From positions 1 to 64,000 of the forward strand of contig WHVA01000417.1 in the NCBI GenBank assembly GCA_015179125.1: 64,000 nucleotides of DNA, written 5' to 3'. Below are positions 58,026 through 61,000 of the stretch, in pieces. Numbering within the stretch: the stretch's first letter is position 1; the number at the start of each line of letters is the position of its first letter. This DNA is from Gautieria morchelliformis (Eukaryota > Basidiomycota > Agaricomycetes > Gomphales > Gomphaceae). Under the pieces are notes generated by a model that was not told where the DNA came from, made no database searches, and saw only the letters and a list, made by a program, of their open reading frames with translations. The position numbers were made by a program, and so were the translations under genes.

Positions 58026-61000
58026 TTATGCAATAGCTGCTTGGTGCTCCGTGCTGCCTGACTGGAACTGCTTGGTTCTTGCTGCCTTGTGCGCTTGCAG
58101 AAGGTCAACAATCGCGGAGTGACCATTAGATGACGCCGCCTCCAGCGCCGTGCCAAATTGGCCGCCTGGAGCATCCACATCCGCGCCATTCTCGAGCAGC
58201 AACTGAACAATAGCGGTGCTGCCACAATACGACGCCGATTGCAACGCAGTTCCATCCTCTCCGCCAAGTGCGTTGACGTCGGCTCCTTTCTCGAGCAGAA
58301 ATCGAACCATCGCCGCATTGCTTGGCTCCATCGCGGCCGACTGCAACGCACTGCCAATCTCTCCCTTGCGGGGGTTTACCTGGGCTCCCTTCTCCAGCAG
58401 GAGCCGAACGGTCCCCTCGTTCCCGCGACCCGACGCTGCCTGCAGCGCATTGCGCGAGGGTGATTCCTGGAAGTTTATATCTGCTCCATTGTCCAAGAGT
58501 AACCGGACAATTCCTTCATGGCCATTAAATGACGCCGCCAGCAGCGCAGTAATACGCGTCCCTCCGTCATGTACTAGTTCGACATCAGCTCCAATCTCCA
58601 GTGGCTGTATCATCTCATCAACACCAAAATATGTCACTACCTTCCACCGAAAAGTGTCATCCCCCACTCCTTGTGCGTTGGCATCGGCCCCATGGTCCAG
58701 CAGTAACTTCACCACTGCATCGTGTCCACTATATGATGCCGTCACCAGAGCAGTGCCATGCCACTCTCCTTGCGCGTTGACATCAGCTCCATTATCCAGC
58801 AGTAACCGAACCACCCCTTCATGTCCACCACGGGCTGCCTCCTGCAGCGCAGTGCCAAAAAGCCTCCCTTTTACATTGGCGTCCGCGCCCTTGTCCAGCA
58901 GCAGCCCATCACGGCCATGAGATGTCATTGCCCGCAGAGCACAGTCCTTCGCCCTTGCATTGGCATCAGCTCCATGGTCCAGCAGTAGTTGCACCACTTG
59001 ATCGTGGCCCATACATGACGCCGCCTGCAGAGCAGTGCGGCCATACCGCCCTCCTTGTGCGTCGACATCGGCCCCATTGTCCAGCAGTATTTGAACCACT
59101 GCATCGGGGCCCATATCTGACGCCGCCTGCAGAGCAGTGCCATACTGCCCTCTTTGTGCAGCACTTGCCGCCGCATGCAGCGCAGTGCCAAAATCCCCAC
59201 CTTCTGCATTGACGTCTGCGCCCTTGTCCAGCAGTAACTGAACCACAGTTTTATGCCCATTGTACGCCGCTGCCTGCAGCGCGGTATCGAACTTTCCACC
59301 TCGTGCGTTGACATTAGCTCCCACTTCCAGCAGTAATTGAACCATGCCATGGTGCCCCGCGTGCGACGCCGCCTGCAGCGCAGTGTCATATTCCCCTCCT
59401 TGTGCGTTGACATCAGCACTATTGTCAAGTAGTAGTCGAGTCAGTTCTTCCATGCCTAAATATGCCGCCATGTGCAGCGCAGTGTGAAAATAACCCCCCC
59501 CCTTGCATTGATGTCCGCACCCTTGTCCAGCAGTAACCGAACAATTCTTTCATGCCCAGCACATGTTGCCGCCTGAAGAGCAGTGCCGAAATGCACCCCC
59601 TTTCTACCGTCCGAAGCTCTGGGCTCTAGCCAAATCCATATGCGATAATGTCTCCACGACGGTGCGACGCGAGACGGTGTGACGCCGGCATCAGCCCCAT
59701 TGTCCAGCAGTAACCGAACCACTCCTTCATGTCCTTTATACGCCGCCACCTGCAGCGCAGTACCGTATTCTTTGTCCTCTTGTGCGTTTACATCCAACCC
59801 AGATCTCAACAAATCTTGGCATGTTCGTTCCAGCCCAGCAAACGAAGAGTAATATAGAGGCGAGGGAAAGATTTTCTTGGGGTTGTCCGGTGTGACTAGT
59901 AGTGGGTCTGGGTCTGGGTCTGAGTCCGTGTCTGATACTAGTAGGTCTGGTAGGTCTGGTAGGTCTGGGTCTGGGTTTGGGTCTAGGTTGTAAAGCTGTA
60001 GCCAGTTTTTATACATTGCATCTCTGGGCTGAAATAGGGCCATCACCAGTCTGTGAAGAGAATCAGATTCACCGTCAGCATCTGATTGAGCATGGTCCAT
60101 CCACTGTCTGGCCGCATAATCAGAAAGTGGATATGTCCGTCTCGTGGTTGAGGACACGCAATTATGCTCGCTGAACTGCAACAGATAAGCCAGACATGTT
60201 TTGGCAATATACCTGTCAGCAACCCTACGGTTGAAATGATAGTATGACAGCTTTGGGTTTTTCTGTAGGTGTTCCGAGGTGAGATATTCTCGGACCGAAA
60301 AATGAGCGAGTCTGAGCGAGCTCGCTTCTCTGTCCTGGTTCATCCCGTCCCCATCCCGATGTACCTTGACCTCCGTGACGACAATAGTGACGAGACTGGA
60401 ACATATAGTTACTATATTTCGTGAATCCCAAGGCCGTCGGCCTGGGTCAAATAGTGGACCATCTTCCGCATCAGGATCAGTGGCCAGTACCTCAACAGCT
60501 TCTTCCAGTGATATCGGTCGAACCGCGAATGCGAGCCACTGCAACATCCTGAGAGCATCCCGCCTACGTTCCTCATGAATAGCCGATAGAATTCTATCAT
60601 AGGTCTCATTTAGTGTCCTTGGTAGAGATTTGAGTGCCTTCCTGAGCTCGGTCGGAGAGAAACAATTTCGAAGTGCATCTAGCTGGCAAACAGCCCATCG
60701 AAACCTTGCTGTCCTGTCAGTATATCTCAGCATAGATGCGCACAGACTACATTACATTCCGTGTGCGCCGTTAATCAGTGTACTTTCAATCAATTGCTTC
60801 TCTTCTGGTGAGCATCGCCTGAACTTGATATCATGATCAAGTGTCTTGCACACATGGGTACGGATGTCATCGTCGACTAAACACGCGTCCATGGGTATTT
60901 GGTGTGAAACGAGGGTATCCAACGTTTCCTCAATGTCACGTTCCCTTCGACTACTCGCCAGCATGTGTATCGTGTCAAGACCCCAACCATGGATCTCTCG

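Follow-up and report, generated by a model that had tools for sequence, protein, structure and literature searches.

A frame break at a run of nine G within the ankyrin repeats of a NACHT gene of Gautieria morchelliformis

In the assembly of Gautieria morchelliformis, a gene for an NLR with ankyrin repeats, a receptor of the type by which fungi detect foreign cells, loses its reading frame at a run of nine G (G9), and the question that this locus raises is whether the break is a sequencing error, a recent null allele or a switch in the receptor. The initial annotation had put forward these three options, which we judge to be the right set. The window, that is, the whole stretch analysed here, comprises 64,000 nucleotides (C468:1-64000), and the controls come from the same genome (122 Mb, 1113 contigs). 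Elsewhere in the window we observed a 135-bp tandem repeat of 5.1 copies (9545-10255), which lies within an open frame of 644 codons that has no Pfam match, and an 18-bp tandem repeat of 5.8 copies (53004-53108).

The gene, named copy A here, is a NACHT-ankyrin gene on the minus strand that runs from 62291 and has six exons:

61837..62291, minus strand: exon 1, N-terminal helical-looking domain, no family assigned
61698..61786, minus strand: exon 2 of the gene model
61462..61632, minus strand: exon 3 of the gene model
61385..61409, minus strand: exon 4, P-loop (GAGKT)
60756..61325, minus strand: exon 5, NACHT module
59456..60704, minus strand: exon 6 read in the upstream frame, covering the last of the NACHT/winged-helix part and the first ankyrin repeats

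The start codon in exon 1 was picked through its conservation with a tandem copy (copy B, see below). The five introns measure 50, 65, 52, 59 and 51 nt, four of them with GTRNGT donors, and the spliced upstream part keeps 852 residues open, ending just before the stop codon that closes this frame. The spliced product matches the Pfam families NPHP3_N (E 5.6e-41) and NACHT (E 1.6e-7) above the cut-off, and the ankyrin repeats match Ank, which confirms the type of gene proposed from the sequence at the outset. Sixteen ankyrin repeats were scored by profile. The N-terminal domain reaches PF17111 (PigL_N) at E 0.037 only, below the cut-off, and a profile search with the spliced product gave no match to an N-terminal family at E 0.05; this domain may be HeLo-like.

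Three features define the break:

59494..59502, minus strand: G9 run (C9 on the plus strand), site of the frame change in the sequence
59456..59458, minus strand: stop codon closing the upstream frame, 12 codons past G9, from the frame reading and the gene model
58026..59495, minus strand: downstream-frame ankyrin repeats, with 488 codons past G9

No other run of G or C in the window is as long as G9. The upstream frame (59456-60751) covers the last part of the NACHT module together with the first ankyrin repeats (Ank, E 7.2e-16), and the downstream frame is open over 59549-58026 (Pfam Ank, E 3.1e-74). After G9 the 488 codons of the ankyrin frame, which is -1 relative to the upstream frame, contain no stop, against 21 and 12 stops in the other two frames of the strand. 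The repeats that flank the run are spaced 101 nt apart, where 334 of 433 neighbouring pairs from 22 loci are spaced 99 nt. With the stop at 59456-59458, copy A lacks a single intact open reading frame in the assembly; the frame break is real there, and it is a slip in run length within an NLR family that evolves fast. The earlier placement of the break at G9, with ankyrin coding resuming in another frame, is borne out, and the lengths of seven or ten G proposed to restore the protein agree with the phases. A genome search for a second allele or haplotype copy with 59590-59705 matched this segment only, and the next-best match of 59200-60300 is copy B (83% over 612 of 1101 bases). Segment 59590-59705, single copy in the genome, widens the spacing of two ankyrin repeats by about 78 bases, to 177 against the usual 99.

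Splicing of an intron that takes out G9 is extremely unlikely. The initial annotation held that no GT..AG intron fits the phases; in fact 248 phase-continuous GT/GC..AG pairs of 30-400 nt span the run, although its conclusion stands in that none is convincing. Not one of the 248 has the full GTRNGT donor seen in four of the five introns of the gene, and the best short candidates, such as a 65-nt pair (59520-59456, donor 5/6) that lacks a CTRAY branch site, would excise the greater part of an ankyrin repeat. Programmed -1 frameshifting at G9, or slippage of the transcript there, by which one gene would encode both a short and a full-length protein, is hardly to be expected either: the downstream frame is the -1 frame and G9 is a possible slip site, but relatives have no conserved tract. 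The 100 nt past G9 contain no stable RNA structure (z -0.14, with 81 of 200 shuffles folding as well).

To see the break in the context of the family, we searched the genome with the signalling half, which gave 266 matches and 97 scored candidates. Repeat phase was read in copies A and B, in the first 20 loci of the 95 other candidates and in three added arrays (L005, L006 and L016). Copies A and B and the 20 loci contribute 433 neighbouring repeat pairs, of which 4 are out of phase (copy A, L041 and two in L036); the added arrays have 0 of 21 (L005), 1 of 21 (L006) and 1 of 22 (L016), for a total of 6 of 497 pairs in 5 of 25 loci, copy A included. By inspection, four of the six breaks fall inside G runs of at least four, which cover 1283 of 48750 array bases (2.6%, 22 loci), and those of L006 and L016 fall outside such runs. 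Whatever the cause, frames in this NACHT-ankyrin family break at G runs, in a family-wide excess. Each break of L036 is one or two bases short at a G run, with clean repeats on either side; the two lie within about 400 nt of each other (about 5500-5930), after which the starting frame is back. G runs of 7 or 8 occur in loci that are in phase, at least five of them, L028 and L034 included. Three of 22 loci (L035, L040 and L044) have internal stops in the NACHT-side exon, and two further stops, in L045 and L046, fall at the usual intron place.

Chance G runs are found in these arrays because the repeats encode a Gly-Gly codon pair, within the consensus N-A-Q-G-G. At the Gly-Gly site, 395 of 467 repeats have a longest G run of 2 or 3, and runs of 4, 5, 6, 7 and 9 occur in 31, 18, eight, five and one, so G9 is the tail of a smoothly falling distribution. 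In the 10 other loci listed, the repeat that is third by order has a G run of only 1-3, and the segment is absent from copy B; therefore no long tract is conserved, and nothing marks the G9 site as a maintained tract. The word "switched" in the title of the initial annotation is not supported, given that out-of-phase pairs occur also in L036, L041, L006 and L016, that long runs are a by-product of the Gly-Gly pair and that the tract is not conserved.

Copy B (L025) lies upstream of copy A on the same contig and strand (C468 about 70111-73300). In the signalling half the two copies agree at 95.4% of 2433 aligned bases, and over the 3' end they are 93% identical; their dS is 0.077. The ankyrin exon of copy B stays open for 521 codons in a single frame, has 7 scored repeats and is without the segment that carries G9. 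In exon 3 of copy B (C468 about 71900-72500) the frame is lost with the acceptor homologous to that of copy A, and only an AG four bases further keeps it; copy B is not a clean intact control because its exon 3 frame needs this shifted acceptor. One part of copy A is identical to copy B:

60051..60350, minus strand: stretch with zero differences between copies A and B, flanks differing by several percent

Recent gene conversion is the likely origin of this identity. Further along the contig, C468:86863-92831 (L027) contains long open frames that by eye resemble a retrotransposon polyprotein.

We compared the coding sequences of copies A and B on either side of the run. The dN/dS ratio is 0.32 before the repeats (624 codons), 0.29 in the first repeats (62 codons) and 0.93 after G9 (173 codons), a contrast that is not significant in the counts before versus after G9 (Fisher P 0.06, rounded counts) or in the counts after G9 versus three pooled intact ankyrin pairs (P 0.16). 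Five pairings among other loci show 0.36-0.56 in their ankyrin parts, and one of them (L028/L029) reaches 0.81 in its NACHT part, so single values scatter. Against the repeat profile, the last four repeats of copies A and B score 44/46, 31/31, 53/52 and 29/25; since those of copy A score like those of copy B, no decay is visible. The odd spacings in the array of copy A (147, 102, 84, 204 and 102 nt) are all multiples of three, therefore the frame appears to have been kept until lately. Judged from these sequence comparisons, dN/dS and repeat profile neither prove nor exclude a real null. As for an old pseudogene, we reject it on the 488 stop-free codons, for which neutral simulation gave P 0.40, 0.16 and 0.03 at 0.02, 0.04 and 0.08 substitutions per site and is thus only mildly against it. 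The long open frame had been offered earlier as the case against an old pseudogene; the frame does lack stops, but the argument is weaker than it seemed, as 16% of simulations stay stop-free at about half the A/B synonymous divergence.

The reading that we favour, with a probability of about 0.5 and slightly above a recent null, is a consensus miscount of G9 in the assembly of a gene that is intact or nearly so. Gly-Gly codon pairs build G runs by chance, long runs within near-identical repeats are difficult to call and polish, and a wrong run length may so have entered the consensus at G9 and probably, in the same way, at L036 and L041; it is this technical origin that we infer. It agrees with the position of four of the six out-of-phase pairs (of 497, 25 loci) in G runs that make up 1283 of 48750 array bases, with the double break of L036 within about 400 nt, which resembles poor consensus more than repeated mutation, and with the cleanness of the rest of copy A (six exons, five introns, 852 residues and 488 codons). 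There is also a precedent: in PMC12222747, a single-base deletion in a repeat of the NLR het-d of Podospora strain TG+ was judged, after short-read mapping, to be a misassembly in a small homopolymer. The location of the breaks is no discriminator, however, because real slippage also favours G runs; the loci in phase with runs of 7 or 8 G, at least five, mean that a long run can be called correctly; the breaks of L006 and L016, two of the six, are not at G runs of four or more; and the dN/dS of 0.93 past G9 versus 0.32 before is as in a truly broken gene (P 0.06; 0.16 versus intact pairs). A real and recent null, produced by replication slippage at G9 in a single gene of an NLR family that is large and evolves by birth and death, is quite possible because of the true-looking nonsense codons in L035, L040 and L044, although we hold it to be the less probable of the two. 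The receptor made from such an allele would be cut short at 852 residues and keep only the first few ankyrin repeats. Broken members thus exist in the family, the dN/dS contrast fits a null, the spacings in multiples of three fit a frame intact until lately, and homopolymer slippage is known in fungi, with indels in coding homopolymers of mismatch-repair mutants according to PMC5614558. Set against a null are the lack of significance of that contrast, the fit of the last four repeats of copy A to the profile, as good as for copy B, and the positive selection reported for fungal NLR ankyrin repeats in PMC4986451.

An evolved on/off switch, in which a maintained G run would toggle the long sensor array among nuclei or strains, is very unlikely. 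G9 is long enough for instability and lies where a change would part the signalling half from the sensor half, and PMC5614558 reports homopolymer reversion and suggests that contingency loci with homopolymer runs may exist in fungi; but in the third repeat the 10 other loci listed hold 1-3 G, copy B is without the segment, run lengths at the Gly-Gly site fall smoothly over 467 repeats, and one assembly offers no positive evidence for a switch. Equally doubtful is a diffuse contingency system, in which slippage sites at Gly-Gly pairs throughout the family would often and reversibly cut or restore the sensor arrays of self/non-self receptors. In the open-licence PMC literature our searches listed no paper that we recognised as describing a homopolymer switch in a fungal NLR.

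Copy A resembles the fungal NACHT-ankyrin NLRs described in PMC4986451 in its NACHT/NPHP3_N module followed by many ankyrin repeats, in belonging to a large family within one genome and in a repeat number that varies between close copies (16 in A, 7 in B), and differs from them in being out of frame within the array and in an N-terminal domain without a family. With het-d/het-e of Podospora it shares a base-level homopolymer indel in an NLR repeat, and stop codons supported by reads are described there in another strain; those genes have WD40 repeats, however, and were judged by reads, whereas copy A is known from an assembly (PMC12222747). A further parallel is offered by msh2 lineages of Cryptococcus deuterogattii, a fungus in which coding homopolymers gain or lose bases, with reversion; those lineages differ in being mismatch-repair mutants (PMC5614558).

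If the break is only a miscount, it warns that false frameshifts accumulate in the repeat arrays of fungal NLRs. Surveys such as PMC12258605 discard candidates with frameshifts, so true nulls and miscounts are both lost. A break that proved real and variable would give bacterial phase variation a eukaryotic parallel, in an immune receptor.
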